DNA from: a virus
Virus record (IMG/VR): IMGVR_UViG_3300048925_000304
Location: 1-47,654 of that record
DNA: 47,654 bases
Direction: 5' to 3' (one strand)
In this document: in pieces, positions 20,234 through 39,026 of the stretch
Layout: each line of letters begins with the position of its first letter
Numbering within the stretch: position 1 is the stretch's first letter
Position numbers and translations under genes: made by a program
Notes under the pieces: generated by a model
Told to the model about the DNA's origin: nothing
The model's database searches: none
Seen by the model: only the letters and a program-made list of their open reading frames with translations

Positions 20234-20270
20234 GCTATGGCGGGCTCCGCGCCTGAGTTACCTCCGTCAG
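20234..20270 (-). promoter_or_regulatory. Late-promoter motif, copy A
   Basis: Minus strand: CTGACGGAGGTAAC, 17 bp, CATAGC, then 8 nt to the ATG at 20225. The TGA inside the motif is the stop codon of the upstream gene. One of six copies. Confidence 0.68.
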
Positions 20271-20788
20271 GCGTAGAGCTGGATCGACAGGAAGGACCTG
20301 GCCGCGAGGATGTCGATCGACGTGTCGCCCGACACCTGCATGAAGCAGTCGAAATAGTCGCCGGCGACGCACGGCACCAGGCCCGAGGTCTGCGTCGAGC
20401 CCCAGTTCGTGCCGGCGTTGTAGCCCTGGGTCGCCGCGATGGCCGTCCCGTTCTTCCTGATCTGGATGATGGGGCTTAGCGCTGCGGTGACGTTCTGGAT
20501 GTAGATGCCGCACTCGACGCGGGCATAGACGAACCCGGACGGCACGATCATGCGCTGCGGCGTGGTCACCGTGCTGTGGATGCCGTCGGTGTCGAAATCC
20601 TCGGCATCCCATTGCACCGAGGCGCCCGTGGAGAAGTCCTTCAGGGTCTGGTCGGCCGAGAACTTCGCCCGGGCGCCGTGGATGTAGAGCTCGGCGAAGT
20701 TGTCGTTCACCTTGTCGAAGGCGTCACGCAGTGGATCGCCCGTTCCGTCGTTCGGGGCCGCGCCGATATTGATCGTCTGCCTGCTCAT
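20267..20788 (-). CDS. Tail fibre/tip protein, C1q-like
   Basis: 173 residues. TINIGAAPNDGTGDPLRDAF and KVNDNFAELY form the short N-terminal motif common at the start of phage fibre domains. The remaining ~120 residues form a beta-sandwich (VYARVECGIYIQNVTAALSP ... GDYFDCFMQVSGDTSIDI) like C1q/TNF-type knobs. Probably a receptor-contacting tail component. Confidence 0.65.
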   Translation of the reverse strand: MSRQTINIGAAPNDGTGDPLRDAFDKVNDNFAELYIHGARAKFSADQTLKDFSTGASVQWDAEDFDTDGIHSTVTTPQRMIVPSGFVYARVECGIYIQNVTAALSPIIQIRKNGTAIAATQGYNAGTNWGSTQTSGLVPCVAGDYFDCFMQVSGDTSIDILAARSFLSIQLYA

Positions 20789-20792
20789 CGTC

Positions 20793-22649
20793 TCATCCTT
20801 CGTCAGCGGTGTAGAGGACGCTGTCGGCGGTGATCAGCGTCAGGTCGGCGGTCACGTCGCCGGAGTAGAAGATCGCGGTATCGGACCAGTCCGAATGCCT
20901 GCCGTCTCCGGTGCCGTAGGAGGCCTGGATTTCGATCAGCTCACCAACCGGCACGATGTCGGTGACGATCTCAACCGAGGTGCCGGCGGGGATGTCACGG
21001 AACTCCAGCGCCCCGCTCCAGATGCTCTCGGCGGACAGGCGCCAGCGCAGGAACCAGGTCAGGTCCTCCCGGTCCTCGCTCGCGATCGTCACCTTGAGGC
21101 GCGAGCTGCCCGAAACCTCGATCGTCTCCAGGTCGGTGATCACCGGGGGATCGAGCGGATCGATCGTGGGGATTTCCCCGACGGGGGTGCCTGCGCCGTC
21201 CTCGGTGGCAGGGTCCCAGTCGTCGATGTCCGGCGTAGCGGCGACCCAGTCGAACCGGACGCCTCCGGTCTGCATGTCGCGCTCTGGCGAACTCACGATC
21301 TCCGCCGGGCCGTCATAGAAGACCGTGCCGGCCTCCTCGATCCTCAGCCAGATGAAGCGCTCGCCGATGATGTCGCGCCCGCCATAGGTGGTCGTGATCG
21401 TGCCGCGATGCGGCGCGTTCGCGCGGATCATCTTGCGCTTGGCCAGGCGGCGGCCCTGGGTCGGGGAGGGGATTTGCGCCTGCAGTGGAACGGTCACGGG
21501 CTCTCGGCCGCTCGCATCGATCGCGGCCTGATCCCGCCACGCCTGCGCGTCCGGCGTGGTGTATTCATGCTCCGCCGAGACATAGGTGATCGTCACCTCG
21601 TTGACGGCGTTCTCCGCTTCGACGTGACGCTGGAGGCTGTAATCGACGATCTGGTCCGGCCCGAGGCTCTTCGTCGGCTCGTAGTAGCGCCCTGAATAGA
21701 TGATCAGCTCGCCGCGGGTGTTCTCGCAGAACCACCCGTCGAAGGCGGCGAGGAAGGCGGCATTGATCGATGCCGGGGCCTCGTTCGCATTGTAGCCGAG
21801 CGAGAGGCGATAACGCGGCTCGGTCCCGCCGGCGGATAGTGCCTGTGCGGTGTCGCAATCGTCCAGCGCCGCGATCCACTTGTCGATCTGGGGCAGGATC
21901 TGGGTGTCGAAGTCGACGCCGCGCTGGGTCAGCTGGTAATGGAGGAACGCCGCGACAGGGTTCTCGCCCGGGTTGGGATCTCCGGGCGTGGCGGAATCAT
22001 AGCGCCAGGTCGTGCTGTCATTGGCGTCCTGCGCCTCGTCGCGCGGATCGAACACCAGCGACCATTCCCCGGCGATCGACATCTGAATGTCGTCGCCATT
22101 GGGATATGTCTCGAGGAACTTCTCGGTCTTGGTCAGCTGCTTGATCAGGTAGCCCGTGACGATCCCATCGCCTCGGTGATCGCTGGTCCAGATGCCGGGC
22201 AGGGCGGAGACGACAGCGGCGAACGCGGTCTCGGTGGGCAAGCCGAGATTGTAGCCGGCGAGCAGGCGGCCATCCTGATAGCGCTTGTCGCCCAGCGCCT
22301 GCACCACGCCGCCGACGATCGTCACCTTGTCGTCGTTGAGATAGACCTGGGTGACGGCGTGCATCTGGCCGTCCTGGAAGGCCCAGACGTCGACGGGGGT
22401 GCCATCCGACTTGTAGCTGTAGAGGAGCCAGTCGCCGAAGAGCCGGCCCTTGCCGTAATAGCGCTTGCGGGCCGGGACCGGCGACTTGCGTGACGATTCC
22501 GTCGTCTCGGGGCGGATCGCCGGGGTGGCATTGGCAAGCGCCTGCAATCCGAGGACACCCGCGGCGGCGACGACGAGGCCGACCGGGCCGAAGGGAGCGT
22601 ACCGGATGACGGAGGCTACGGCGCCGAGGATGTTGCCCAGCGTCTTCAC
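20793..22649 (-). CDS. Tail tip/host-specificity protein
   Basis: 618 residues from a GTG overlapping the upstream stop. A hydrophobic N-terminus (AAGVLGLQALANA) precedes KRYYGKGRLFGDWLLYSYKS, typical of tail-tip attachment proteins in the gene-J / GTA gp15 position. The middle is baseplate-like; ~520-600 (SRLKVTIASEDREDLTWFLR) is fibronectin-III-like. It lies after the tape measure and the NlpC/DUF6950-position gene, as in other siphophages, so it probably forms the tail hub or central fibre. Confidence 0.75.
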   Translation of the reverse strand: MKTLGNILGAVASVIRYAPFGPVGLVVAAAGVLGLQALANATPAIRPETTESSRKSPVPARKRYYGKGRLFGDWLLYSYKSDGTPVDVWAFQDGQMHAVTQVYLNDDKVTIVGGVVQALGDKRYQDGRLLAGYNLGLPTETAFAAVVSALPGIWTSDHRGDGIVTGYLIKQLTKTEKFLETYPNGDDIQMSIAGEWSLVFDPRDEAQDANDSTTWRYDSATPGDPNPGENPVAAFLHYQLTQRGVDFDTQILPQIDKWIAALDDCDTAQALSAGGTEPRYRLSLGYNANEAPASINAAFLAAFDGWFCENTRGELIIYSGRYYEPTKSLGPDQIVDYSLQRHVEAENAVNEVTITYVSAEHEYTTPDAQAWRDQAAIDASGREPVTVPLQAQIPSPTQGRRLAKRKMIRANAPHRGTITTTYGGRDIIGERFIWLRIEEAGTVFYDGPAEIVSSPERDMQTGGVRFDWVAATPDIDDWDPATEDGAGTPVGEIPTIDPLDPPVITDLETIEVSGSSRLKVTIASEDREDLTWFLRWRLSAESIWSGALEFRDIPAGTSVEIVTDIVPVGELIEIQASYGTGDGRHSDWSDTAIFYSGDVTADLTLITADSVLYTADEG

Positions 22650-23014
22650 GGACGCCACGCCTTCACGACAGCGGTCTCGGGGAGCCTGAGGAAGGTAAGC
22701 CCGCGATCCGCGCGCAGCGCCCAGCGCTCGCCGGTATAGATCGCGCCCGCTTCCATGCCGGCACGGCGGACCACGCCGATATCGCCGGCGCGCAGGTTGT
22801 CGGCGAAGGGCAGGGCGTCGCCGATCCCGCGCCACCACAGCCGCAGAAGCCCGCGCCGGGCGATGCGCTCGCACCGACGCGCGTCGGTGATCCAGCGCCA
22901 GTTCCGGGCGAAGTCGGGATGCCCGCGTGCGATGCACCAGTCCGCCGGGAAGGTGGAGCAGTTCCACGGCCCGGAAGCGGACAGTTCCCGCTCGAGGAAG
23001 TCGGCGAGGATCAT
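22646..23014 (-). CDS. DUF6950-like tail assembly protein
   Basis: 122 residues, ATG overlapping the upstream stop. LADFLERELSASGPWNCSTF followed by PADWCIARGHPDFAR fits the DUF6950 pattern (FL..E...W...DCxxF.ADW). This family replaces the NlpC/P60 tail peptidase in many alphaproteobacterial phages. The Cys (C19) is retained, but a full peptidase triad is not evident. Confidence 0.65.
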   Translation of the reverse strand: MILADFLERELSASGPWNCSTFPADWCIARGHPDFARNWRWITDARRCERIARRGLLRLWWRGIGDALPFADNLRAGDIGVVRRAGMEAGAIYTGERWALRADRGLTFLRLPETAVVKAWRP

Positions 23015-23571
23015 GCGCTCGGCCCGAACCGGCGGCGCGCGCCCTGGCTGAGAAGCGCGACATGGCTGCAGATCGTGTCGGTGGGCGAGCGACGGCGCTG
23101 GTCCTGGTCGGTGTAGTAGGCGGGCTGAGGATCGGACCGGAACGTGTCGGCGCTGCGGACCGAGAGCTTGATCGTGCGCTGCTTGCCGCTGTCTGTGCTG
23201 GTGCCGGCGACGACCATGATGTCGGCATGGCCGCGCCAGACCCATTCCGGTGCGCCGAGGTTCTGCCAATTGCTGTCGAGCGACTGCTCGCCGATCAGGA
23301 CGAGCGCATCCTTGACGCTCTCGGCATCCTCCATGGCGAGGCGCAAGGTCTGACCCGAGACACCGCCAAGGGTGAAGTCGAGCCGGTCAGCAGTGCCGTT
23401 GATCAGGGTGCGGAGCGCCGGGACATCGAGGAGAGCGCCGAGACCGAGGTACCGCGCGCCGGAGGGGTCGACGGCATCGGCGGTGACATCGAGATCGCCG
23501 TGACCGGACCAGAACCGCGCGATGGGGTCGGCGGCGAGCCGGAACAGGATCGATCGCCGATAGGTGGCCAT
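23011..23571 (-). CDS. Tail tip assembly protein
   Basis: 186 residues. MATYRRSILFRLAADPIARF ... ARYLGLGALLDVPALRTLIN ... CSHVALLSQGARRRFGPSA. Position directly after the tape measure suggests a distal tail or hub adaptor, comparable to the GTA gp12-gp13 position. No Shine-Dalgarno; the ATG is 8 nt past the -10-like box of late-promoter copy B. Confidence 0.62.
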   Translation of the reverse strand: MATYRRSILFRLAADPIARFWSGHGDLDVTADAVDPSGARYLGLGALLDVPALRTLINGTADRLDFTLGGVSGQTLRLAMEDAESVKDALVLIGEQSLDSNWQNLGAPEWVWRGHADIMVVAGTSTDSGKQRTIKLSVRSADTFRSDPQPAYYTDQDQRRRSPTDTICSHVALLSQGARRRFGPSA

Positions 23572-23579
23572 GGGGCATG

Positions 23580-23616
23580 GCTAGGGCGGCAGGGCGGCGC
23601 CGATTACCTCCGTCAG
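23580..23616 (-). promoter_or_regulatory. Late-promoter motif, copy B
   Basis: Minus strand: CTGACGGAGGTAAT, 17 bp, CCTAGC, then 8 nt to the ATG at 23571. The TGA of the motif is the tape-measure stop codon. Confidence 0.68.
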
Positions 23617-26339
23617 CGGTACGTGCCACGCCGCTGGAAGCCCGGACCGGATTCCAGCACGGCCTTGCGCGCGCCAGCGTCGGCGATGAGCGGCGCGGCC
23701 TGGGCGATGGACTCGCGGTTCCGGCGATCCACCTCGGCCATCAGTTCGCGCGTCGTGATCGCGTTCTTGAAGACGGTCTGCGGCGCGTGGATGATCGTGA
23801 CCCCGCCGCGCGGGGCCACGGCTGCGGTCTGGCCAAGGGGGATGATGGTGCCGCCCTGCGATCCCATGCGGAGAAGCTCCATGCCGCCCCGGTTCTCATT
23901 GACCCGTACTGTCTGGCCAGGGCCAACATAGCCACCGCTGGCACGCCCGAAGAGCTTCTTGATGAAGCCTCCCCCTCCGCCCGAACCGCCGGCGGCCGCC
24001 CCGAATAGCTCATCCGCCAGCGGCCCAATAATCTGGCGCTCAATACCGATCCGGATCAGTTCGCCGACGAGGTCCCCCAAAGCCCCCTTCAGGCCGAGAG
24101 CCTTCTTCGTTGCGTTGGTCAACTCGTCACTGAGCTTGCGGAGCCCGTCGACTTCGATGTCTTCGATCTGGTCGTTGATGTCGCGGAAGATCTCCCGCCG
24201 GTAGGCCTGGCCGGGGCTCTCGAACTGACGATCCAGGCCGGCACGCTCCGCATCCTGCTTCCTCGCCAGTGCTGCCCGGGCTGCGGTCGCGTCCGCAATC
24301 TCACCGGCGGCGATAGCGGTTTCGAGGCGGGAGGTTTCCTCCTGCTGGGATAGGTCGAGAATGCGCCGCTCAAGTGCGAGGCGGGTTCGGCGATCGTCAA
24401 CCAGCGCAGCCTCGGCCTCGAGCGCCTCGCGCTGCAGCTGGAGTGCGCGTTCGGCCTGGTCGCGCTGGGCCCGCTCCAATTCGCGATTGATGGTGATGCC
24501 CTGAGGGCTCGCACTCGTCAGGTTACCATTGGAATCGCGCCCATAGATCGCGTTGACCGCGGCGCGGAGGCGAGCCTTCTGGGCATCGCTGTAATCCTTG
24601 GCGGCGTTGATCTCGGCGATCCGGTTCTTGTATTCCAGCTCATAGAGCGCGCCCTGCAGTTCGGCGCGCTTTTCAGCATCGGTCGTAATATCGAGCTGCG
24701 CGCGAATCTGCTCTTCGCCAAGCTGACCGAGCTTGTCGGCTACCTCGGCTGCGATCTCTGCCGGGCTGCGCCCATGCCGACCCTTCTTCTTTTTGCCGTC
24801 GTCCGCGATGCTGCTGAGCGCGGATTCCGGTGCGGAAAGGTTAGCCTGCTGCTGGGCAAGCGCGGCCATCAACGTGCCGACAGCCTGCTCTTGCGCTCGG
24901 ATGCTCTCCTGAACCTGTTCGAAGCGCTGGTTGGCAGAGCGGTCTCTAGCGCTGCCCACGGTGCCGGTATTGAATGCGCCAGAGAGTGCGTCCTCCCGAT
25001 TCGCAGCAGCCTTTGCGCTTGCGTATTCGGCGGTGGCGAGGAGAAGCGAGGCCTGCGCGCTGGCCAGCTTTTGCTTGGTGTTCTCGAATTCGGCCTTGGC
25101 AGCTTTTAGCGCTTCAGCTCGAGCCTTGCCGTGCGCGTTCGCTAGTTTGTCGATCGCATCCGTCGCACGCTTGCTCGTGTCGCCAACGATCTCCTGCGCC
25201 TTGGCGTTGATCCGAGCCGCCTGCGCGGCCTCACCTGTCCGGGTCGTCAGAACACCGATACCGATCGCGAGGGCAGCAACCGCTATCCCAACCGGGCCAC
25301 CGAATGCGGCCAGAAGTGAGGTACCCGCCAACCGCGCCGCGACGCCAAGTGTCCCCAGCGCCGTCGTTACGCCAGCAGTTGCTGCGGCGGTCGCAATCGC
25401 GGCGACAGTGGAGGCGGCGAGACCGGCGACAAAGCGACCGAGGAGTATCGCCGCAACTACGGCTAGCGCGTCCACGATGGTATCAAGGTTGCCGGCGAGC
25501 AAATCCATTCCACCGGCGATGGCCTGCGTCACGCCGTTCGCTTCGGCAGATTGCCCGATATAGACGGTGAGAGCGTTGGTGAGCTTTGTGAAGGCACCGG
25601 AGAGCGTCAGAGTGGCCTCGGACGCCTGCTCTATAACCTGGGGGGCCCCCTTGAGGAGTGCGTCCACAAACTCCTTGGTGGTGACGTTCGACTTCTTCAC
25701 GTCTGCGGTGAGCTTGGCTACTGACCCAGCCCACTTATCCGAGCCAGAAGCTACCGCTTGCAGCAGCGGGCGCAGTGCGTCGATCAGGCTGTTGTATTCC
25801 TCGGCCTGGATCTTCGAGCCGCCTAGGGCTTGCGAAAGCTGGAGTAAGGCGCCGGAGGCGGATTCAGCGGTCGCGCCGGTTATCTTGAGTGCGGCGGCGG
25901 TCGCCTCCGTAATCGTGGCTTGCTGCTGTTGATTGAGCCCAAGCTCCTTGGCGGCCGCTGCGCTCCGACCATAGAGAGTGCCGATCGCCTCTAGCTCAAC
26001 GCCATATTTTTGCGCGATGCCGAACAGTCGCTCCTGCACCAAAGCGAGGCGCTCGCCCTCGATGCCCGCTACGCGCAACTGGTTCTGGAACCTCGTATAA
26101 CTGTCGATGATACCGGCAAGCTGCTGCGTGGAAATTGCTCCGGCCAGAGAGCCTGCGAGGCCCCGTAGGGTGCCGCTGATCCGCCCCGACGATGCCTTGA
26201 TCTGGCGCTCAAGGTCGAGAATTGCGCGCTCTTGACGTGCGAAGTTCGACGTAGCCAGCGCAGTCGAGTTCTTTAGCTCGACCTTATAGGCGTTCATCTG
26301 CGCGCGGATTTCGAGGATAACGGGATCGATCTCGGCCAC
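23613..26339 (-). CDS. Tape measure protein
   Basis: 908 residues. Sets tail length and probably helps DNA exit. N-terminal helical region (EIRAQMNAYKVELKNSTALA), a conserved tape-measure block (~60-230: YTRFQNQLRVAGIEGERLAL ... LSQALGGSKIQAEEYNSLID), Ala/Gly-rich hydrophobic segments (~270-370: LLGRFVAGLAASTVAAIATA), then long coiled coils (~380-760). The GTG at 26339 has GAGG upstream; an in-frame TTG at 26351 is the alternative. Plus-strand morons separate it from the chaperone gene. Late-promoter copy C lies upstream. Confidence 0.9.
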   Translation of the reverse strand: MAEIDPVILEIRAQMNAYKVELKNSTALATSNFARQERAILDLERQIKASSGRISGTLRGLAGSLAGAISTQQLAGIIDSYTRFQNQLRVAGIEGERLALVQERLFGIAQKYGVELEAIGTLYGRSAAAAKELGLNQQQQATITEATAAALKITGATAESASGALLQLSQALGGSKIQAEEYNSLIDALRPLLQAVASGSDKWAGSVAKLTADVKKSNVTTKEFVDALLKGAPQVIEQASEATLTLSGAFTKLTNALTVYIGQSAEANGVTQAIAGGMDLLAGNLDTIVDALAVVAAILLGRFVAGLAASTVAAIATAAATAGVTTALGTLGVAARLAGTSLLAAFGGPVGIAVAALAIGIGVLTTRTGEAAQAARINAKAQEIVGDTSKRATDAIDKLANAHGKARAEALKAAKAEFENTKQKLASAQASLLLATAEYASAKAAANREDALSGAFNTGTVGSARDRSANQRFEQVQESIRAQEQAVGTLMAALAQQQANLSAPESALSSIADDGKKKKGRHGRSPAEIAAEVADKLGQLGEEQIRAQLDITTDAEKRAELQGALYELEYKNRIAEINAAKDYSDAQKARLRAAVNAIYGRDSNGNLTSASPQGITINRELERAQRDQAERALQLQREALEAEAALVDDRRTRLALERRILDLSQQEETSRLETAIAAGEIADATAARAALARKQDAERAGLDRQFESPGQAYRREIFRDINDQIEDIEVDGLRKLSDELTNATKKALGLKGALGDLVGELIRIGIERQIIGPLADELFGAAAGGSGGGGGFIKKLFGRASGGYVGPGQTVRVNENRGGMELLRMGSQGGTIIPLGQTAAVAPRGGVTIIHAPQTVFKNAITTRELMAEVDRRNRESIAQAAPLIADAGARKAVLESGPGFQRRGTYR

Positions 26340-26366
26340 GGCGCGCCTCAAGGTTGCGCGCCGGGG

Positions 26367-26403
26367 ATAGCGTGTGGCAGCATGGCCTGATTACCTCCGT
26401 CAA
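26367..26403 (-). promoter_or_regulatory. Late-promoter motif, copy C
   Basis: Minus strand: TTGACGGAGGTAAT, 17 bp, CGCTAT, upstream of the tape measure. The TA is shifted one base from the other copies, and the leader is longer (27 nt to GTG 26339). On its far side lies the plus-strand moron pair. Confidence 0.6.
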
Positions 26404-26413
26404 AGGAAAGCCC

Positions 26414-26842
26414 GTGCTGCGTCGCCTGATCTTGCCGATCACAGTGCTTGCACTTACCCCGGGATGCGACCGAGGGCGCACGCAAGCCGAGGAGGCCGTA
26501 AAGCGCCTACTCATCGACCCCGGGTCAGCCCAATTCCGCGATGTGGTGTCATACCCCAATGGTGCCGCAGAGCGGTATTGCGGCGAGGTGAATGCCAAGA
26601 ACCGAATGGGCGGGTATGTCGGTTTCACCAAATTCTATGTCGACATGAATGGCCCCGTCGTTGTGCTGGACCCTGGCAAGGTCGAACTGACCGTGGATAG
26701 CGCCGGGTCGGTGCGTGCGTGGGCCGATGGCCAGAATTTCCAGGTGGCCTACACGGCCATGTGTTCCAACATGGGGACGATCCAAGCGGAGGATCTGGCC
26801 AGGCCTGCCTTCAATTTGGCGGAGCAGCCCGCTGGCAAGTGA
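26414..26842 (+). CDS. Moron: predicted lipoprotein
   Basis: 142 residues on the strand opposite to the tail operon. Begins MLRRLILPITVLALTPGC, a signal peptide with lipobox-like TPGC (lipidation near C18). The mature part has PGSAQFRDVVSYPNGAAERY and CGEVNAKNRMGGYVGFTKFY, like small secreted bacterial proteins of unknown role. AAAGGAAAG lies just upstream of the GTG. Such lysogeny-expressed envelope proteins often block superinfection; that is inference. Confidence 0.7.
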   Translation: MLRRLILPITVLALTPGCDRGRTQAEEAVKRLLIDPGSAQFRDVVSYPNGAAERYCGEVNAKNRMGGYVGFTKFYVDMNGPVVVLDPGKVELTVDSAGSVRAWADGQNFQVAYTAMCSNMGTIQAEDLARPAFNLAEQPAGK

Positions 26843-26872
26843 CACAACTAGGCGCATAACTGGAGCGATCGA

Positions 26873-27157
26873 GTGACCTTTATCAAGCAGATCAACGGAA
26901 GCGGCACCCTGGTCGTGGCAGGCGTCGAGTACGGGCCAGCTGATTATCTGCTCGATGCGTACCAGAATGCGAGGATGACGTGGGCAGATGGGGTCCTGAA
27001 TGCTGATCCAGCTGGGTTCGCGGTCGCTATGGACGGGATGTGCATGGCTTCGGTGCGGCTCGGTTCGGGAGCCATCGTCGAGTTCGCCATAACCCATTGG
27101 ACAACTGGCACCGACCAAGCGCAGGTGAAGGCATCAGGGTCGGTGCCAGGGCTTTAA
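26873..27157 (+). CDS. Moron: hypothetical protein
   Basis: 94 residues, GTG preceded by GGAG. FIKQINGSGTLVVAGVEYGP begins a small beta-type fold; MCMASVRLGSGAIVEFAITH follows. No family recognised. It ends tail-to-tail with the chaperone GT frame, stops overlapping at 27154-27157, and probably shares a transcript with the upstream lipoprotein. Confidence 0.6.
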   Translation: MTFIKQINGSGTLVVAGVEYGPADYLLDAYQNARMTWADGVLNADPAGFAVAMDGMCMASVRLGSGAIVEFAITHWTTGTDQAQVKASGSVPGL

Positions 27158-27788
27158 TTCGCCCGCGCGGCCTTGAACCGCTTCAGCCGGTCCATATCGG
27201 CGGGCGGTTTCCCTCCCTCAAGCGCGGAATTGTGGGCCTCGAGCGCCTCGCAATACTCGCCGAGCGATACGCGCTCCCAGTCCAGCCCGAGCTGACCGCA
27301 GTTGGCTAGGAGGACGCCTCGGGCGAATCCGTCAAGCTTTCGCCCGGCGCGGGTTCCTTTTTTTTTACGTCGATGCCGACGATCATCGCATTGAGCCCAG
27401 CCCAGGCGAGATATTGCCCCTCGATCAGGGGCCGATACGGATAGAGATAGTCATCGCAGAGCTGCGCCGCTCGCTGCGGCCCCACCGGCGTCTCGACGCC
27501 GGCGACGACGCCCGAATTCCCGGCGATCAGCAGCAACCTGACGGTGTGGTAGATGTCCATCGGCCGCGCGATTCCGCCGCCAAAGTATGCGGCTTGCCCA
27601 GCTTCCTCGTTGAAGCCGAGCCCGGCCTCGCATTCGGCATGGATCTGGTAGATGCTCTTGGGCGTCACATTGCCCTGGGCATCCTTGTGGCCGCAGGCGC
27701 GCTCCAGCTCCACGATCTGCTTCAGCGACAGCGCGCCCAGCTTGTAGGTGCCGTCGCCGAATTTGACGGGCTCCAGACTGGTCTGCAT
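27154..27788 (-). CDS. Tail assembly chaperone, -1 frameshift product (GT-like)
   Basis: A -1 shift at AAAAAAG (27357-27363) would carry ribosomes past the zero-frame TAG at 27306 into a frame open to TAA at 27154. The added ~70 residues (KLDGFARGVLLANCGQLGLD, ADMDRLKRFKAARAN) are coherent and include the conserved-looking WERVSLGEYCEALEAHN, so this frame is used. This is the lambda G/GT arrangement: the extended form recruits tape measure and major tail protein. Confidence 0.78.
27306..27788 (-). CDS. Tail assembly chaperone (G-like, GTA gp10-like)
   Basis: 160 residues, zero-frame product. LEPVKFGDGTYKLGALSLKQ and IVELERACGHKDAQGNVTP match tail chaperones of alphaproteobacterial phages. 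It precedes the tape-measure gene in transcription order. The ATG overlaps the upstream stop. It is the source frame for the -1 slippery sequence near its 3' end. Confidence 0.8.
   Translation of the reverse strand: MQTSLEPVKFGDGTYKLGALSLKQIVELERACGHKDAQGNVTPKSIYQIHAECEAGLGFNEEAGQAAYFGGGIARPMDIYHTVRLLLIAGNSGVVAGVETPVGPQRAAQLCDDYLYPYRPLIEGQYLAWAGLNAMIVGIDVKKKEPAPGESLTDSPEASS
27357..27366 (-). promoter_or_regulatory. Slippery site for -1 frameshifting
   Basis: Nine As followed by G on the minus strand. Read in the zero frame as GTA AAA AAA AAG, this contains A AAA AAG, the most efficient bacterial -1 heptamer. It is correctly phased for both chaperone frames. Confidence 0.8.
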
Positions 27789-28305: not shown

Positions 28306-28752
28306 TCAGGCCTCCGGGGTCCAGGCGAGTTCGCCTTCGCCCTCGAGCGTGATCTCGCCGGTCGAGTCGCCTTCTCGGTCGGTCGAGATGTTGCGGGCAG
28401 TCATGACGGCCTGCCCGGCATAGGTGCCGAGCAGTTCACCGCCGTCGGTGCTGTCGTCGCGGAAGACGGGGATTTGATAGTTGACATGCTTGCCGAGGGC
28501 GGCGCGGAGGGTGGCGATCTGGTCCTTGTCGATCAGGCCAGAGCCGGTGACATCCCAGGCGGTGCCGAGAACGCGCGAGTAGCGCGCCGCGGGCTTGTTC
28601 GGCTTAGCGCAATCACGCTTGCGGCGCGTCTGGGTATCCGCGGTTTCGTTGATGCTCACCTGGGTAAGGTCGCAGATGACCGTGAACACTTCGGGGTCGG
28701 CGCCGTCGCCGATCTTGATCTGTGCGAAATCGAATTCGACCGGGACGGACAT
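28306..28752 (-). CDS. Major tail protein
   Basis: 148 residues. MSVPVEFDFAQIKIGDGADP ... FTVICDLTQVSINETADTQT ... GEITLEGEGELAWTPEA fits GTA/TP901-1-type major tail (tube) proteins: short, beta-rich, with the first strand then a long loop. Position between neck and chaperone genes is right. It has a proper ribosome site (GGAGCTAGAGG), unlike most genes behind the late motif. Confidence 0.75.
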   Translation of the reverse strand: MSVPVEFDFAQIKIGDGADPEVFTVICDLTQVSINETADTQTRRKRDCAKPNKPAARYSRVLGTAWDVTGSGLIDKDQIATLRAALGKHVNYQIPVFRDDSTDGGELLGTYAGQAVMTARNISTDREGDSTGEITLEGEGELAWTPEA

Positions 28753-28780
28753 GCCTCTAGCTCCGCTGTTTGGCGGGGAA

Positions 28781-28817
28781 GCTAGGGGTGGTCAGTGTCC
28801 CGGGTTACCTCCGTCAG
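28781..28817 (-). promoter_or_regulatory. Late-promoter motif, copy D
   Basis: Minus strand: CTGACGGAGGTAAC, 17 bp, CCTAGC, then 28 nt with a Shine-Dalgarno to the major tail protein ATG at 28752. The motif lies inside the 3' end of the preceding coding sequence, in a frame where its TGA is not the stop. Conservation is therefore not a by-product of stop codons. Confidence 0.68.
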
Positions 28818-31774: not shown

Positions 31775-31784
31775 CTCGGGCTCC

Positions 31785-32888
31785 TCAGAAGCTGTCGCGG
31801 TACACGATCGCCTTGGGCAACCGGACCTCGGTGCCGCCGACGTTCATGATGCCACCGACCTCGTAGACCATGCTGCCCTTCTGGAAGGCAGGCAGGAACT
31901 GGTGAGCACCGGGCAGGTGGAAGCGCACCACCTCGCGGCTGTTGTCGTAGAACACCATGCGCTTGGTATTGCCGGTGCCGGCGGTCTCCAGCGCCCGGGT
32001 TGCCTTGATCGTCAGGGGCTTACCGGTGAGTGCGGTATAGGCGTTCTTCTGGCGGATGAAGTCGAGCAGGGTGTCGTTCGTGTCGCCGAGGCGGCGCGAC
32101 GCGAGTTCCTGGTAGGTGCTGGTCGGCATCAGCCAGGTATTGGCGAGATGCGTCTCGCCCGTGCCGGTGTGGACCGCCGTGATGCCGCTGTTGATGTCAC
32201 GCAGGACCTGGGCATCGGTCTTGTCGGCGAACAGTCGCGACGAGCCCGTTCCGTCGTTGGCGACCTGCGCCGACGGGGCCGAGCCATTGTTGATCAGGCC
32301 GGTCCAGCCCTTCTCCGACGTCGCTGCGCCCGGGGTCCGTCCGGTCATCGCGATCGCCCAGAGGAAGGCCTGCGCGATCTGGTCGGCGGCCATCGCCTTG
32401 TCGCTGGTGAGCGACCGGCCGAGCTTGGCGGCGCGCTGCAGCTCCTGCGTCGACCATTCATAGCCGATGCCGGCCAGGTGGAACGCGTGGCTGTGCTGGT
32501 TCCGCAGCGTATCGGCATAGGGCATGTCGAACGCCTTGCCGCTCAGGAACTCGGCCTTGCCGACCTGGTCCATGCTGTAGAAGACCGTACCGACGTCCCA
32601 CATGTCGCCGCTGGTGTCGACGGTCATAAGGGTGGCGAAGTCGAAGCTCGGATACTTCCGCATATAGACCTCGGTCTCGATGCGGTAGAGCTGCGGCTGG
32701 AGGAAAGCATAGCCGACCTGCGCGTCCTGGAAGAACGAGTCGGTGCGATCCGCGAACGTCGCGGCGAGGCGAGCGTCGGACGCCTGCCAGTTCCGGATCG
32801 CGGCCTGGCGCTGCGCCTCGGGAGCGGCGTGGAAAGCGGCGGCATCCTGGAACATGCCGCCGGTCGCGTCTGCGAAATTCATGAACAT
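31785..32888 (-). CDS. Major capsid protein, DUF2184 family
   Basis: 367 residues. Forms the icosahedral shell. TDSFFQDAQVGYAFLQPQLY ... RNQHSHAFHLAGIGYEWSTQ ... QAFLWAIAMTGRTPGAATSE ... DINSGITAVHTGTGETHLAN ... VRFHLPGAHQFLPAFQKGSM fit the DUF2184 branch of HK97-fold capsid proteins. AAGGAGG on the minus strand precedes the ATG at 32888. The decoration protein lies upstream and the DUF2213 protease/scaffold before it. Confidence 0.88.
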   Translation of the reverse strand: MFMNFADATGGMFQDAAAFHAAPEAQRQAAIRNWQASDARLAATFADRTDSFFQDAQVGYAFLQPQLYRIETEVYMRKYPSFDFATLMTVDTSGDMWDVGTVFYSMDQVGKAEFLSGKAFDMPYADTLRNQHSHAFHLAGIGYEWSTQELQRAAKLGRSLTSDKAMAADQIAQAFLWAIAMTGRTPGAATSEKGWTGLINNGSAPSAQVANDGTGSSRLFADKTDAQVLRDINSGITAVHTGTGETHLANTWLMPTSTYQELASRRLGDTNDTLLDFIRQKNAYTALTGKPLTIKATRALETAGTGNTKRMVFYDNSREVVRFHLPGAHQFLPAFQKGSMVYEVGGIMNVGGTEVRLPKAIVYRDSF

Positions 32889-32901
32889 CTGCCCGCCCTC
32901 C

Positions 32902-33624
32902 TTAGCGCTTCACGACGCGGATGAAGTCACCATCCACGCCCGTGGTGTCGATCTTCCAGCCCCCGGTCGGGCGACCGCTGCTGGCTACGATATTGCCGTC
33001 CGTGTCGATGAATGCGTCGGCGCCGTCCGACACCGAACCGCCGGCCTCGAGGATGATCGGCCCGCGCGGCATGATCGCCACGTTGTCGTACTGCTGGTAC
33101 TTATCGACGGTCTGGCCGGTCAGCAGGCCAAGGCACGAATGGGCGATGGTGAAGCCCAGGAACTCGTTGCCGGTGACGTCGATGTAGAAGGTGTCGCCGA
33201 TCGTCGCGGTGCCACCGTTCGTGACCGTGAACGACGTGATGCCGGGAACGGTGGTGATCGCCGTGCCGACGACACCGTGCGCGACGACGACGCCGTCCGG
33301 ATCGGTGACCAGCAGCGCGCCCGTCGACGACGTGGCGAGCTGGGTGATCGTGTACCGGCCGATCTTCGCTCCTGCGCCGACGGTGGGCGACGCAGTGATC
33401 GTCGAGGTACCCACATTTCCGGCGGCGGCGCTGCCCGCACCGGCGAGCGTCTGGGTCGCCGTGCAGCCATGGTCACCGGCGCCACGGTAAGCGGCGACGC
33501 CGAATCCGATGCCCGCGGAGTCCTCGATCGTGCGCGAGATGCGGTTCTGCAGCTCGCCGCTGGGCACGAAGCCCTTGTAGCCGATCGCGAAGTTGTCGGT
33601 GTAGGTGGTCTGAACTTCAGCCAT
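32902..33624 (-). CDS. Capsid decoration/structural cement-like protein
   Basis: 240 residues. N-terminus AEVQTTYTDNFAIGYKGFVP ... IEDSAGIGFGVAAYRGAGDH, then beta-rich Gly/Ala/Thr repeats and an end GGWKIDTTGVDGDFIRVVKR. This layout, just before the major capsid gene, fits a head decoration protein; family not certain. Confidence 0.65.
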   Translation of the reverse strand: MAEVQTTYTDNFAIGYKGFVPSGELQNRISRTIEDSAGIGFGVAAYRGAGDHGCTATQTLAGAGSAAAGNVGTSTITASPTVGAGAKIGRYTITQLATSSTGALLVTDPDGVVVAHGVVGTAITTVPGITSFTVTNGGTATIGDTFYIDVTGNEFLGFTIAHSCLGLLTGQTVDKYQQYDNVAIMPRGPIILEAGGSVSDGADAFIDTDGNIVASSGRPTGGWKIDTTGVDGDFIRVVKR

Positions 33625-33635
33625 GGTTCGGCTCC

Positions 33636-34739
33636 TCAGCTAGCGTAGCGCGCGTCGCGCGCGGCGTTGCGGACATCGACTGCGTCATTCGCGATCACAC
33701 GCGCATCGCCCAGCGGCTGCACCCCGTGCTGCGACGGCTTCATGTCCTTGGTCGCGACGGCGAACGAGGCGGCGATCTGCTCGTCGTTCCAGTCCTTGGC
33801 GCTGTCGCCCATCACCTTGGCGACGACGGCCTTCATGATCGCGCTCTCGTCCATGGCGTCGGTGACGGTGACACCGAGCGCCTTGGCCTTATCGCAGACC
33901 TGGGCATAGCCCTTGGCAGCGTCGAGGAGCTGGGCCGGGGTCGGCTTGGCGTCCTTGAGCTGCTGGTTCTCGGTCTTGAGGCCCGCGATCTCGATGTCCT
34001 TGGCCGCGAGCGAGGTCTTGAGGGTGGTGACTTCGCCGGTGGCGGCGTCGCGCGCAGCGACGAGGGTCTTGATCGTGGCCTCCGCCGTATCGGCGTTGGA
34101 CACGTCGACGGTCAGCCCGTCGATCAGCATGGTCTTCACGGGCTTCTCCATCTTCAGGGAATCGAGGAATGCTTGGGGGGCGGCTTCACAGGGCGCCGCA
34201 TCGGCGATCCGGCATTCGGAACCGGCGCGGCCATGGTCTACAAGGGCGACGTGATTGCCGCTGATCCGGGTCTGGCGCGCCTGGCACACCGTGCCGTCGG
34301 CGGCCTTGAAGTCGCCGAACTCGAGGTTCGCGTCGTAGCCGTTGCTCAGCTCGCGCTTGCCGGCATCGACCTTGGCGATGGCGTCGGCATCGGTCAGCAG
34401 CAGGTCGAAGGCGAGGTAATCGCCGTCCCGGAGCGCGCCCATGATCGTGCCCCGGGCATGGTCGCGCCAGTTGGCGGAGGTGACCGGCTTGCTCGGGTGG
34501 TTGTCGGTGATCGGCTTGCCGATGAAGCTTTGCGCCGAGGTCGCGTCGAATACCGTGTTCTCGTCGCGCAGCACGTTGACGATCGCGGTGTCGCGCAGGC
34601 CGTGCTTGTTCTCGGGATCTACCTCGCTGCCACCGTACTGGTACACGCCGGTGCGGGCAGCCTTGGCGCGCACAGCAAGGAAGCCATCCTTGGTGCGGCG
34701 GGGCGCGTCGAGCGTCAGGCGGTCAGCCATGAAAGTCAT
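33636..34739 (-). CDS. DUF2213 prohead protease-scaffold protein
   Basis: 367 residues. Residues ~1-190 match DUF2213 (EVDPENKHGLRDTAIVNVLR ... FIGKPITDNHPSKPVTSANW ... RISGNHVALVDHGRAGSECR), regarded as a capsid maturation protease. Residues ~200-290 are a coiled coil (LAAKDIEIAGLKTENQQLKD) suited to scaffolding. Protease and scaffold are thus fused; an internal start near MEKPVKTMLIDG could yield scaffold alone but lacks a ribosome site. No Shine-Dalgarno at 34739; the start lies 10 nt past late-promoter copy E. A second ATG follows at 34727. Confidence 0.8.
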   Translation of the reverse strand: MTFMADRLTLDAPRRTKDGFLAVRAKAARTGVYQYGGSEVDPENKHGLRDTAIVNVLRDENTVFDATSAQSFIGKPITDNHPSKPVTSANWRDHARGTIMGALRDGDYLAFDLLLTDADAIAKVDAGKRELSNGYDANLEFGDFKAADGTVCQARQTRISGNHVALVDHGRAGSECRIADAAPCEAAPQAFLDSLKMEKPVKTMLIDGLTVDVSNADTAEATIKTLVAARDAATGEVTTLKTSLAAKDIEIAGLKTENQQLKDAKPTPAQLLDAAKGYAQVCDKAKALGVTVTDAMDESAIMKAVVAKVMGDSAKDWNDEQIAASFAVATKDMKPSQHGVQPLGDARVIANDAVDVRNAARDARYAS

Positions 34740-34749
34740 GGCTGCACGG

Positions 34750-34786
34750 GATATTAGGGCTGGCTAGTGGAGGTTACCTCCGTCAG
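34750..34786 (-). promoter_or_regulatory. Late-promoter motif, copy E
   Basis: Minus strand: CTGACGGAGGTAAC, 17 bp, AATATC, then 10 nt to the ATG at 34739. It lies 6 bp after the stop of the preceding gene and would drive the protease-capsid block. Confidence 0.68.
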
Positions 34787-34792
34787 AACGGA

Positions 34793-35026
34793 TCACAGGT
34801 CGCCGCCATACCTCACATAGAGGACGGCCTTGGGAGCTACATCAGGCCTTTCCTCTAGGTCATCGCCTGGGAGTCGCGGCCAATGGCGCACGCCGACCAC
34901 CCTATATATCTCCCAATCGCGCGCGAGGACCATCACCTCGGTGCCGATTGCAGGAACTGCGGCAAGCTCAAGATCGGCAACATGGCGATCATCAATTTCG
35001 GCATACAGCGAGCACCGGACTGTCAT
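34793..35026 (-). CDS. Hypothetical small beta-type protein
   Basis: 77 residues. RCSLYAEIDDRHVADLELAA ... VMVLARDWEIYRVVGVRHWP ... APKAVLYVRYGGDL: mostly strands. One of three coupled small genes between the F-like head protein and the protease; function unknown. Confidence 0.6.
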   Translation of the reverse strand: MTVRCSLYAEIDDRHVADLELAAVPAIGTEVMVLARDWEIYRVVGVRHWPRLPGDDLEERPDVAPKAVLYVRYGGDL

Positions 35027-35304
35027 TCTGCTTCCCGCAGCATCGCGTCGACCACAGTTTGCCAGATATCGAGCGCGTCGGCGACCGGAATGCCCTTGTC
35101 GAGAACGGCGCCCATGGCGTCAGAGCCGGGGGCACGGATAGCGGTTAGGACTGCGCGGACCTTCGGAACATAGGCGCTCCAGAGCGGCGGTGCCGGCACT
35201 GGCTCCATTGTTACGCTCGTCTGGAACCCGGCGCGGTGGGGCGTGTCCGGATCGTAGCCATCCATCTCGCACAGCGCCCGCGCGGCCCGTTCGATGGGGG
35301 TCAT
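35023..35304 (-). CDS. Hypothetical small helical protein
   Basis: 93 residues, overlapping both neighbours. TPIERAARALCEMDGYDPDT ... PKVRAVLTAIRAPGSDAMGA ... DALDIWQTVVDAMLREAE. The opening resembles small phage proteins of the IERAARAL..xDG type; role unknown. Confidence 0.65.
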   Translation of the reverse strand: MTPIERAARALCEMDGYDPDTPHRAGFQTSVTMEPVPAPPLWSAYVPKVRAVLTAIRAPGSDAMGAVLDKGIPVADALDIWQTVVDAMLREAE

Positions 35305-35588
35305 GCTAGCGCCAAGACGAGGGATTCCCCGTCGACATGGTCAACACGGTAGGTCTCATTGCCTGCGCCATCCCACGACAGAATAAACGTCTTGCCGATC
35401 GCATCCGCAGGGGCGTCTCCGAGTTCGTTGGGCCAGCGGGCCATCCTGATCGTCGGTGGGGTCGGGCGCATTAGTGCGGCGGCGCGCCGCATTGCGCGAT
35501 CGATGTTCGGCGCAGCCACGAACTCCACGTCGATCGAAACTTCGTGCTGTGGTGGTGCCTGATAGCTCGCTATCGTGTCATCAGCCAT
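35301..35588 (-). CDS. Hypothetical protein
   Basis: 95 residues; GGAGG upstream sets the ATG at 35588. VSIDVEFVAAPNIDRAMRRA, then a beta-type C-terminal half (KTFILSWDGAGNETYRVDHV). First of the three-gene insert. No family recognised. Confidence 0.6.
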   Translation of the reverse strand: MADDTIASYQAPPQHEVSIDVEFVAAPNIDRAMRRAAALMRPTPPTIRMARWPNELGDAPADAIGKTFILSWDGAGNETYRVDHVDGESLVLALA

Positions 35589-35885
35589 TCGATCCTCCGT
35601 TGATCGTGTGGTCAGGGCCGGACGCGGTAGCCGCCGCGTTCGGCTCGTTGCTGCGGCACTGCCCATGGTCCGGGATCATAGGCATTCCTGAAAGGCCACT
35701 TGCCCGCCTGCATCGCAGCCCCGGAGGCCCCTCTGCCGCGTTTTTGACAGGTGCCGCAGCCCGCGAATCATACCACCGCGGCGACTCGTGACCAAGCGCA
35801 AAGCGCTATTTCTCGCCGGTGCCTGTGCGTCTCTGCGCCAATCGTGGGTTGAACATGAAACAAGGGCCCTGGAAGGAGAACGATC
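35589..35885. other. Non-coding gap
   Basis: About 300 bases without a convincing gene on either strand, between the small-gene insert and the candidate moron at 35886. No copy of the late motif or the operator is present. It probably holds the promoter of the plus-strand candidate, but no clear -35/-10 pair stands out. Confidence 0.4.
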
Positions 35886-36740
35886 ATGGTTCCGGTTTGC
35901 TATTTCGTCGTGAGAGTCGCGGATGCCGGCCTCTTTGTCGTCTGTCGCAGCCACTGGGAGGGGAATATGCTGCGCACTCGCGATGTGCACGCTTTCCGCT
36001 CGTCTCGCGCTGCAATCGCCGAAAAGATGCGGCTAATCCAGCACCAGAACAGCCTGGCCCCTGCAACCGCAGTAAGGAAGCTGCCCCGGCCTGTCCTCTG
36101 GGGGCGGAAGCACCTCCTCACCATTGGCAGTCGCGCCGGCGCCGGCCTCGCTGTCCGCATAGAACTTCCCGTCGCGGGCGATATGCTCGGCGCGCCCATG
36201 CTTCTTGTGCGACCAGCGCCATTTCCACAGGCTGATACCGGCTTCCCGCCGGCGCTCCTCTGCGAGCGACGACGTGATCTTGCTGAGCTGGTCAGCGGCG
36301 ATGCGCATGGATCGATCGCGCGCCATGCCGACGGCGCCGCGGATTTCGGCCGCTACCTCGCGGACAGGCTTGCGCTGGGTCAGGCCTGTGAAGACGGCGT
36401 TGCTGATGCGCTGGCGGGCCTGGGCGGAGACATCGCGGACCAGCGAGGTGTTCCACTCAAGGTATTGCTCGAGCGTCGCCCGGACATCCTCGGGGCCGAT
36501 GAGGGTCTGCAGGTCGACCCCGGTCGCGGCCAGGACGGCGCCGCGCCACTTTTCCCGCTGCCAGCGCTCAACCCGGACGGTCCAGTCGCGGAGCGAGGCG
36601 TCAATCAGGATGAACAGGCGTTCGAGGTCGGAGGTCGCAGCATCGAGCCGAGCTTGCAGGTCGGCGGGGCTATCGGTGGTGAGCGACGACAGCGTCCGCT
36701 CATACTCGGCGATGATCGCGTCGGTGCGCGAGGCCCATAG
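35886..36740 (+). CDS. Possible chimeric or truncated moron on the plus strand
   Basis: The ATG at 35886 has an excellent AAGGAG upstream, and the first ~55 codons read like a real protein (MVPVCYFVVRVADAGLFVVC, HAFRSSRAAIAEKMRLIQHQ). Beyond ~36035 the frame stays open only as the antisense of the F-like head gene, so the nominal 284 residues cannot be trusted. Best explanation: a moron whose 3' end was lost or fused at a recombination joint. Alternatively it is a shadow frame with a chance ribosome site. Confidence 0.3.
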   Translation: MVPVCYFVVRVADAGLFVVCRSHWEGNMLRTRDVHAFRSSRAAIAEKMRLIQHQNSLAPATAVRKLPRPVLWGRKHLLTIGSRAGAGLAVRIELPVAGDMLGAPMLLVRPAPFPQADTGFPPALLCERRRDLAELVSGDAHGSIARHADGAADFGRYLADRLALGQACEDGVADALAGLGGDIADQRGVPLKVLLERRPDILGADEGLQVDPGRGQDGAAPLFPLPALNPDGPVAERGVNQDEQAFEVGGRSIEPSLQVGGAIGGERRQRPLILGDDRVGARGP

Positions 36741-36878
36741 CTCCACCACCGGCTTGTACGCGGCGGCATAGAGGTCGCTCGCCAGCGTGGCAGGCGGCAC
36801 GATGTCGCGGACGACGATCTCGCGCCGTCGGATGCCGGGATTGGCGCGGCGGGTGAGGGCGGCGAGGTCGTAGCGCAC
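36033..36878 (-). CDS. Mu F-like minor head protein
   Basis: 281 residues from GTG. The C-terminal half carries the Phage_Mu_F signature: TGLTQRKPVREVAAEIRGAV ... RIAADQLSKITSSLAEERRR ... WSHKKHGRAEHIARDGKFY ... PGQLPYCGCRGQAVLVLD. The N-terminal half is helical. Such proteins sit at the portal and assist head assembly and ejection. Order terminase, portal, F-like, protease, capsid is standard. Confidence 0.85.
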   Translation of the reverse strand: MRYDLAALTRRANPGIRRREIVVRDIVPPATLASDLYAAAYKPVVELWASRTDAIIAEYERTLSSLTTDSPADLQARLDAATSDLERLFILIDASLRDWTVRVERWQREKWRGAVLAATGVDLQTLIGPEDVRATLEQYLEWNTSLVRDVSAQARQRISNAVFTGLTQRKPVREVAAEIRGAVGMARDRSMRIAADQLSKITSSLAEERRREAGISLWKWRWSHKKHGRAEHIARDGKFYADSEAGAGATANGEEVLPPPEDRPGQLPYCGCRGQAVLVLD

Positions 36879-36881
36879 GGC

Positions 36882-37064
36882 TCAGCCGAAGCAGAGGCGC
36901 GGCGTGATGATTACCATATCGTCGAGGCGCTCTTCGTCCATCCAGACCAAGGAGAGGCCAGCGAGGTTCTCCTCGACCTGGTCGGGACGCAACAGACGGG
37001 CTTCACGCGACAGGTTCTCGGTGTTGACGACGATCGCCAGCGAAATCTCTACGGGCGGGCTCAT
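36882..37064 (-). CDS. Hypothetical small protein between portal and head protein
   Basis: 60 residues, ATG overlapping the portal stop. PPVEISLAIVVNTENLSREA ... LSLVWMDEERLDDMVIITPR suggests a small alpha/beta protein. No family recognised. Confidence 0.55.
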   Translation of the reverse strand: MSPPVEISLAIVVNTENLSREARLLRPDQVEENLAGLSLVWMDEERLDDMVIITPRLCFG

Positions 37065-38980
37065 TCCTCCACGACCCCGCTCTTCCAATCAAGGTTCAGC
37101 GGCTCGAACAGCTCGGGCCCGAACACGAGTGCGCCCTGGAATGGCTGGATCGCCTCGACATCGACGTCAGCCGGCACGCTGTACGAGAGCGTCACATGCG
37201 GCTGATATTCGTCATAGTCGTGCGAGCCGCCAGCCTCGATCATGTCGCGGTGGCGCCAGTCCAGATCGGGACAGGCAAAGCGCAGCACGACGGCGTTCTC
37301 GCCGAGCCGCTCGATCGAGCGCGGGCCGCCGGGGCGCACGGTGATCTGGCCCTTCTCGTCCTCGCGCCAATCCCGGCCCATCTTCATCGGGTCTACGGGC
37401 TGTCGCGAATACAGGACGGTGACGTGCATATCGTCAGCAGGCAGGGTGGATTCGAAGCCGTTTGCCTTGGCCCATGCGATCAGCGCGGACGCGTTCAGCA
37501 GTTTGCGTTGCACATAGGTCGGGCGCGGCGTCGCGTCCGTCATCCACGTCGCTGCATCGTTCGCGGCACGGCGGGCGGGAGGGCCTGAGGAACCGTTCCC
37601 GCCGCCGGCAGATGTTGGATCACCTCCTTCCGCTCCGTTGCCGGATTGCAATCCGCTTGGGTCAGTGCCGTCGTCCTCACCTTGGGCAAGGCCAAAGCGC
37701 TCTTCCTCGCTCAGCTTGGCGAGCGCTTCAGAGAGGCCGGGCAGATAGCCCTTCTCTTCGAGCAGGTTTTGCACGGCACGGGCCAACGCCTCATGCGGGA
37801 CGATGCCCGAGTTGATCAGGTTGTTGATCGCCTCCGTGAGGGTCTTGAAGGTGTCGGCGACTTCCTTCTCGGTCGGGGTATCGAGTGGCGCCCACACCCA
37901 CCAGACCTTCGAAGGGTCAGCAACACCAGCGCTGCGGATCAGAATCGGATCCAGCTGCTCAAGGCAGGGCTGTGTCTCCAGCTTCTGACCAGACGCTACC
38001 GAGCGGTTCCAATTATCCGTATCATGCTGACCGGTGGCGTTCATGCCGGCGGGCGAGCGGCCCATGAGGCGGGTGAAGGGGATATCGGCGACCGCAGCAA
38101 CCCGTTGGTCGAACGCGTCCATGACGGCGGGGATGCCGTTCCATGTGATCTGGTAGTCGGTGATCGTTTCGCCAGAGTCCCCATCGCGGCCGCTGGAACG
38201 AAACAGCGTCGCGTTGAGCGAATTTTCCCCCTCCGCGATCACCGCCACACGCTTGGACAGTGTCTCCATGTCCATTTGGTCCAGATCGGGGATGCCGAAG
38301 CGCAGGAGCTTCGCCTTCTTCACAAGGGCGGCGAACCACGCTTGGGTCTCGTCCGAGCGCCGTACCTCGGTGAACACCCGCAGAAGCCGGGAATCGCCCC
38401 AGAATGCCTCTTCCGTCGCGACAGCGCCGCCCATGGGGATCGGGTCGCCGCGGAAGCAGATGACGCGTGACGGGTGGATATCACGATTGGCAGTGGTGCC
38501 GCCGCTCAACTGGAACATGCGCGGGGTGCCGTAGAGCGGGTCAGCCAGGTCGGTGACCCAATCCTTGCCGCTGATCTGCCAGCGGGACACGACGTTGATC
38601 GCGACCAGGCCGCCCTTGGCGATCGTCTCGGGCTTGAGCGGTTCGGCGTGGTTGCCTGCGGTGATGAGGATAAGCGCGCCGCCGCCCATGCCGCGCAGCT
38701 GCTCGGCGAAGCGGAACTTCGCCTGCACCTGAAGGCGCTTTTCCTCGGCCTCGATGAGTTCGATCTGCTCCTTGTCAGCCTGCCAGTCGCGCCACTCGCG
38801 GACGCGATCGTCCGCCGGGATGGCGATGACCTTACGGAGCATGCCGGAAGACATGTAGGCGGCAAGGGCGAGCTGGTGACCAAAGATGCCGAGAGAGGCG
38901 GCTTGCGGGGCTCTGCCGATGCCGAGGTGGGCACCGATCCCTTGAAGCGCGGCGCGCAGGTTGTCGGTGATGAACGCCAT
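37061..38980 (-). CDS. DUF1073 portal protein with C-terminal Acb1-like 2H phosphoesterase domain
   Basis: 639 residues. Residues ~1-430 are a DUF1073-type portal (IPADDRVREWRDWQADKEQI ... GDSRLLRVFTEVRRSDETQA ... MGRSPAGMNATGQHDTDNWN), the dodecameric DNA channel. After a Gly/Ser/Asp-rich linker (~435-475), residues ~485-639 form a separate domain with two HxT motifs, H519-V-T521 (DDMHVTVLYS) and H595-V-T597 (YQPHVTLSYS). This is the 2H phosphoesterase hallmark and resembles phage anti-CBASS nuclease Acb1, which cleaves cyclic oligonucleotide signals. Activity is inferred. No Shine-Dalgarno; the ATG is 9 nt past late-promoter copy F. Confidence 0.85.
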   Translation of the reverse strand: MAFITDNLRAALQGIGAHLGIGRAPQAASLGIFGHQLALAAYMSSGMLRKVIAIPADDRVREWRDWQADKEQIELIEAEEKRLQVQAKFRFAEQLRGMGGGALILITAGNHAEPLKPETIAKGGLVAINVVSRWQISGKDWVTDLADPLYGTPRMFQLSGGTTANRDIHPSRVICFRGDPIPMGGAVATEEAFWGDSRLLRVFTEVRRSDETQAWFAALVKKAKLLRFGIPDLDQMDMETLSKRVAVIAEGENSLNATLFRSSGRDGDSGETITDYQITWNGIPAVMDAFDQRVAAVADIPFTRLMGRSPAGMNATGQHDTDNWNRSVASGQKLETQPCLEQLDPILIRSAGVADPSKVWWVWAPLDTPTEKEVADTFKTLTEAINNLINSGIVPHEALARAVQNLLEEKGYLPGLSEALAKLSEEERFGLAQGEDDGTDPSGLQSGNGAEGGDPTSAGGGNGSSGPPARRAANDAATWMTDATPRPTYVQRKLLNASALIAWAKANGFESTLPADDMHVTVLYSRQPVDPMKMGRDWREDEKGQITVRPGGPRSIERLGENAVVLRFACPDLDWRHRDMIEAGGSHDYDEYQPHVTLSYSVPADVDVEAIQPFQGALVFGPELFEPLNLDWKSGVVEE

Positions 38981-38989
38981 GGGGGCTGG

Positions 38990-39026
38990 CGTATGGCGTG
39001 GGCTTCGCGCAGGTTACCTCCGTCAG
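38990..39026 (-). promoter_or_regulatory. Late-promoter motif, copy F
   Basis: Minus strand: CTGACGGAGGTAAC, 17 bp, CATACG, then 9 nt to the portal ATG at 38980. A plus-strand moron begins 14 bp beyond the other end of the motif. Confidence 0.68.

Follow-up and report, generated by a model that had tools for sequence, protein, structure and literature searches.

The window, that is the whole stretch of 47,654 nucleotides of viral DNA that was analyzed, contains six exact copies of the 12-mer TGACGGAGGTAA on its minus strand and none on its plus strand (Table 1). PHROG matches assign the genes downstream of the six copies to the portal, the head maturation protease, the major tail protein, the tape measure, and two tail proteins. 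Each copy thus precedes a structural gene, on one strand only, as stated in a first-pass annotation made from the sequence alone. A pyrimidine (C or T) flanks every copy on both sides, which agrees with the same annotation, as does the fixed distance to a downstream TA. This dinucleotide occupies positions +21/+22 after the 12-mer (a 20-base gap) in five of the six copies and lies one base further on, at +22/+23, in the copy at 26391.

From base composition, ∼0.003 copies of TGACGGAGGTAA would be expected by chance on both strands. With up to two mismatches, the window holds 11 matches versus 1.8 ± 1.4 in shuffled sequences, and no shuffle gave 11. Expectation and shuffles together rule out a chance origin of the six copies, an element that unguided k-mer counting did not recover. 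Coding does not account for the conservation either, because two copies overlap stop codons and one lies inside an open reading frame in another frame. In the copies at 20258 and 23604, the TGA doubles as the stop codon of the preceding gene; the copy at 28805 lies within the 3′ end of the open reading frame 29226–28792, and the earlier remark that this copy is embedded in coding sequence of a different frame is therefore correct.

Table 1. Late promoter features and the candidate regulator gene in the window; start points are predicted.
Feature	Position	Strand	Basis
Late promoter element 1, portal gene	39014..39025	-	exact TGACGGAGGTAA; portal by PHROG
-10 box 1, TACGCC, TA at +21/+22	38988..38993	-	sequence
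Promoter 1 start point (predicted); ATG at 38980, leaderless or nearly so	38981	-	
Late promoter element 2, head maturation protease gene	34774..34785	-	exact match; PHROG
-10 box 2, TATCCC; predicted start point 34741, ATG at 34739	34748..34753	-	sequence
Late promoter element 3, major tail protein gene	28805..28816	-	exact match; PHROG
-10 box 3, TAGCTT	28779..28784	-	sequence
Promoter 3 start point (predicted); ATG at 28752, Shine-Dalgarno in between	28772	-	
Late promoter element 4, tape measure gene, spacer one base longer	26391..26402	-	exact match; PHROG
-10 box 4, TATCCC, TA at +22/+23; predicted start point ∼26357	26364..26369	-	sequence
Late promoter element 5, tail gene 23571-23011; TGA is the tape measure stop	23604..23615	-	exact match; PHROG
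-10 box 5, TAGCCA; predicted start point 23571, the A of ATG	23578..23583	-	sequence
Late promoter element 6, tail gene 20225-19539; TGA is the stop of ORF 20788-20267	20258..20269	-	exact match; PHROG
-10 box 6, TAGCGT; predicted start point 20225, the A of ATG	20232..20237	-	sequence
Candidate regulator A1, small helix-turn-helix protein directly upstream of terS	41490..41807	-	co-occurrence; HTH-like model

Several other features of the window were recorded alongside. Three plus-strand genes (38998–39630, 26354–26842, and 26873–27157) lie within the virion cluster and adjoin late promoters; the first matches DUF6680. The C-terminal domain of the portal protein (37061–38980, minus strand; residues 487–633) matches phrog_755, which is annotated as RNA ligase. 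Elsewhere, 1119–1706 (plus strand) encodes a pentapeptide-repeat protein, with 15-bp spaced repeats at ∼1274–1390, and 14039–14674 (plus strand), in the early arm, encodes a protein of the SRAP family (SOS response associated peptidase).

Relatives were collected from viral and bacterial collections as loci with related capsid or portal proteins. In many of them TGACGGCGGTAA is present several times, without exception on the strand of the virion genes. A first pattern scan with the GGAGG form yielded mainly single, chance-like matches. Searching viral contigs for the pattern TGACGGCGGTAA-N20-TA, with no use of protein homology, gave at least 120 stretches, and among the matches listed 27 have two or more copies. 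When the entire records behind these matches and a few more were searched, the copies were confined to one strand in every record. In 28 phage sequences, which come from related phages so that the counts are not independent, TGACGG[C/A]GGTAA (class 1) is found 156 times on the virion-gene strand and 0 times on the opposite strand. Its core reads GGCGG in 148 of the 156 copies and GGAGG, the form of the window, in 8.

Downstream of the element, A occupies position +22 in 141 of 155 distinct copies (background 0.19), whereas T at +21 (−12; 62%) and T at +26 (−7; 39%, in the 28 sequences) are only moderately conserved. Taking A22 as −11 defines a −10 box TAnnnT, places the element at −44 to −33, and sets the expected start of transcription at offset 33. 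The spacing seen in the window is thus conserved in related phages, and, judged by strand bias and spacing, the element is very probably a conserved late-promoter element.

The copies with a called downstream gene were grouped by their distance to the start codon, with starts in the relatives called mechanically. At 70 copies the start codon lies at offset 31–36 (mode 33–34, which accounts for 59 of the 70); 66 of these lack a Shine-Dalgarno sequence, and 63 keep A22. Where the start codon lies ∼20 nucleotides further on (offset ≥45), a Shine-Dalgarno sequence is present in 36 of 38 cases, and A22 is again kept in 36 of 38. The split between Shine-Dalgarno presence and leader length has a Fisher probability of 1e-21. 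A22 is also found in 35 of the 39 copies without a called start in range and in 8 of the 9 copies that fall between the two groups. The element thus keeps a constant distance to the −10 box but a variable one to the start codon. Major tail protein genes, including that of the window, are the typical long-leader case.

In these data, genes have or lack a Shine-Dalgarno sequence according to the leader length expected from the promoter model. Because start codons at the expected transcript start lack a Shine-Dalgarno sequence and those ∼20 nucleotides downstream possess one, most virion mRNAs are predicted to be leaderless. The same split and the placement of the start codons lend indirect support to a predicted transcript start ∼7 nucleotides past the −10 box. 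For the tape measure gene of the window, GTG 26339 is the more likely start than TTG 26351, since in G215 the equivalent GTG, preceded by GAGG, is the start of the homologue, and the leader split points the same way.

Phages with related virion genes that do not carry the class 1 motif possess another 12-mer at the same promoters and in the same register. In G010, whose portal is 70% identical to that of the window and which is the one full genome of class 2, this 12-mer is NRACGACGGTAAWCC, with A22 in six of seven and T26 in all seven copies. Class 3 comprises G011–G014 and L128 with TRSCGTCCGTAGM, where conservation of the −10 box is weaker (A22 in 13 and T26 in 14 of 22 copies); L158, L159, and L132 have the same box. 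Class 4 consists of a single genome, that of phage Yong-M3-232, where several promoters have boxes of the form [AG]CGG[CAG]GGGAA, read by eye, with TA after N20. In-register alignment brings classes 1–3 under the common pattern TRNCGNCNGTAR, with positions that differ by class, and the fourth version is more diverged. At least three, and probably four, sequence versions would thus share one register. No such element was seen at the inspected gene starts of two Rhizobium phages, of phiPSA1, and of Yong-M2-251.

A fifth version suggested by L149 and G342 was rejected as an assembly artefact: at the portal promoter (oriented 5812–5860), a run of N together with a sequence duplication imitates a new motif, and the true adjacent site belongs to class 3. 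Yong-M3-232 (L419, accession OM868076) is recorded as a Synechococcus phage from Synechococcus PCC 7002, and its virion genes, late-promoter layout, and A1 protein are those of sphingomonad phages; a contaminating alphaproteobacterium may have been its true host. A prophage in G016, with host genes around it, likewise belongs to class 3, and the family of this host is that of the class 1 hosts. The presence of classes 1 and 3 within one host family speaks for a specificity set by the phage rather than by the host lineage.

In the 5.5-Mb genome of Rhizorhabdus histidinilytica that carries the prophage L157, six of seven copies lie within 11 kb of the prophage and on one strand. Among 200 Sphingomonadaceae genomes, two have clusters of six copies on one strand, and the remaining single matches are about as frequent as those of a reversed control pattern. 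No chromosomal regulon is visible beyond this control in the 200 genomes, indicating that host chromosomes do not use the element, prophages apart.

The sole non-structural family found throughout the promoter-bearing phages is that of A1. Every phage of classes 1–4 with this region in its record has it, and it was not found in the four relatives without the promoters. Fifteen loci were found via A1 alone, and 13 of them have class 1 elements on the same strand; in L427 and L436, A1 stands in other surroundings without the element. Pfam, NCBIfam, and PHROG gave no family match for A1. Its AlphaFold2 model, of medium confidence (mean pLDDT 69.5), has a core of helices resembling a helix-turn-helix, and a fold search with this model against the PDB gave no significant match. 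Among class 1 phages the putative recognition helix is highly diverse, and the helix of G216, a class 1 phage, is similar to the one in G012 of class 3. Because the helix does not follow the motif class, A1 was rejected as the only determinant of specificity and is treated as a candidate reader only. It is the best candidate for the regulator, a tentative assignment that we hold to be more probably wrong than right. Several weak matches to the A1 helix-turn-helix domain stand in tandem within single proteins of G238 (oriented 12786–13487) and G225 (oriented 10794–11519).

Other candidates fared less well. No regulator emerged when gene families confined to a single motif class were sought. The CII-like early gene 46573–46097 was dismissed as reader because its helix is too variable and the profile drifted to general helix-turn-helix proteins. 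The DnaA domain-IV protein 45807–45475, a possible counterpart of the DnaA-like GafA N terminus, was discarded as universal reader because it is found in only 3 of 13 phages. This minus-strand gene encodes little beyond the DnaA DNA-binding domain (Bac_DnaA_C, E 7.7e-20).

The six copies are, with high probability, late promoters of a temperate tailed phage, each combining a box that is probably read by a phage-specified regulator with a sigma-70-type −10 box. In each promoter, the 12-bp TGACGG[C/A]GGTAA would cover about −44 to −33 and be separated by a 20-bp spacer from a −10 box TAnnnT with a nearly invariant A at −11. The phage-specified regulator most likely binds the 12-bp element and stands in for −35 recognition, and the sigma-70 RNA polymerase of the host would thereby be recruited to six distinct start sites spread over the head and tail genes. 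Four of the six predicted start points lie 0–2 nucleotides from the start codon and would give leaderless mRNAs; for the major tail and tape measure genes, the start point would lie ∼18–20 nucleotides before the start codon, leaving space for a Shine-Dalgarno sequence. We infer the use of sigma-70, the start points, the late timing, and the phage origin of the regulator; the element itself, with its strand, spacing, −10 box, and conservation, is seen directly in the sequences. It is possible, although we would not call it probable, that this regulator builds a multi-promoter, mostly leaderless late regulon and that its DNA specificity changed in register at least two to three times among related phages.

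The first-pass annotation had compared the promoters with ECF-type or activator-dependent ones rather than with those of sigma-70. An activator-dependent promoter is the better supported of the two, because the −10 box looks like that of sigma-70 promoters and because most of the −35 element is replaced by the 12-mer, which lies at about −44 to −33. The ECF type is less likely. Reading by an alternative sigma factor, ECF-type or other, from either phage or host would account for the length of the element and the rigid spacing, and GGTAAC followed after ∼19–20 bases by TA has an ECF-promoter-like geometry. However, no match to Sigma70_r4_2, the only sigma model run, lies above the cut-off in 22 phages, which argues against a phage sigma factor; the −10 side reads as the sigma-70-like TAnnnT, and a host regulon was not seen. 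We therefore regard recognition by such a factor as improbable. Slightly less so, but still unlikely, is a host transcription factor that the phages exploit, with the versions mirroring host lineages. No link between the motif and a phage gene was found, and class 1 sites are identical even where the A1 and early genes of the phages differ strongly, as this explanation would have it. Against it stand the 200 Sphingomonadaceae genomes, where sites beyond the reversed-pattern control are confined to two prophage clusters, and the occurrence of both class 1 and class 3 prophages in this family.

The copies might also mark boundaries or serve recombination, packaging, or antitermination instead of transcription initiation. 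They do lie at module borders, and in class 1 phages a gene with the element stands more often behind an opposite-strand gene than other genes do (25/125 versus 47/480, p = 0.003). The fixed distance to a −10-like box and the split between leader length and Shine-Dalgarno presence would be unexpected for sites of this kind, which makes such a function very improbable. A translation signal, in the form of a Shine-Dalgarno sequence or similar, is suggested by the GGAGG in the window's version, as GGAGGTAA looks like a strong Shine-Dalgarno sequence. This reading was rejected, and we give it almost no weight: it is contradicted by the GGCGG core that prevails in the relatives, by start codons that lie at least 32 nucleotides off in nearly all cases, and by a spacing that is fixed relative to the −10 A rather than the start codon.

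Late promoters of the proposed kind, with a phage-specific box and a sigma-70-type −10 box, have parallels in known systems. In temperate phages such as P2/P4 and Mu, one activator (Ogr-Delta or C, respectively) turns on several late promoters of one phage, and a joint activation of several late promoters per phage is what we propose here. In contrast to these systems, motif and position differ, the units are more numerous and smaller, and no relative of Ogr or C was identified. Late regulators of the RinA/ArpU type are small DNA-binding proteins encoded next to terS. The A1 gene resembles them in encoding a small, predicted DNA-binding protein beside terS, but A1 has no match among Pfam, NCBIfam, or PHROG families, and only co-occurrence connects it with the element.

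At the middle promoters of T4, sigma appropriation relies on the MotA box together with AsiA (PMC7403470). The promoters described here are similar in that a phage box replaces the −35 element before a sigma-70 −10 box and would steer the host polymerase to phage genes. They differ in their 12-mer, in its position at about −44 to −33, in serving virion genes, and in being mostly leaderless by prediction; no relative of MotA or AsiA was identified in the present phages. In alphaproteobacteria, gene transfer agents are controlled by GafA or by GafYZ together with IHF (PMC9638019, PMC11150451). Shared features are alphaproteobacterial phage-like virion genes and, by prediction for the present phages, their activation at sigma-70 promoters with a weak −35 element. 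The Gaf layout is otherwise different, with one promoter for one long cluster, a GafY site near −120, a GafZ palindrome between −35 and −10, and a start codon 251 nucleotides downstream of the start point (PMC9638019, PMC11150451). GafZ-type control was rejected for the present phages, since DUF6456 is found in 0 of 22, whereas the control genome, Caulobacter, matches. The element thus resembles a layout of the T4 middle type, and these comparisons assign it to no named system. The first-pass annotation knew of no description of the element, and a literature search on the motif string and related terms returned none from a body of texts that leaves out most subscription papers and all preprints.

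Beyond the first-pass annotation, the comparison adds at least three, probably four, in-register versions and transcripts that are predicted to be mostly leaderless. In a common group of alphaproteobacterial temperate phages whose late control we did not find described, the promoters would define a late regulon. The promoter model yields exact predictions of transcript starts and corrections of gene starts. It also suggests that expression of virion genes can rely largely on leaderless mRNAs and be divided among several units, an arrangement in which individual genes, even ones on the opposite strand, may be inserted without breaking one long operon. The in-register versions would provide a natural set for studying how a phage regulator shifts its DNA specificity.
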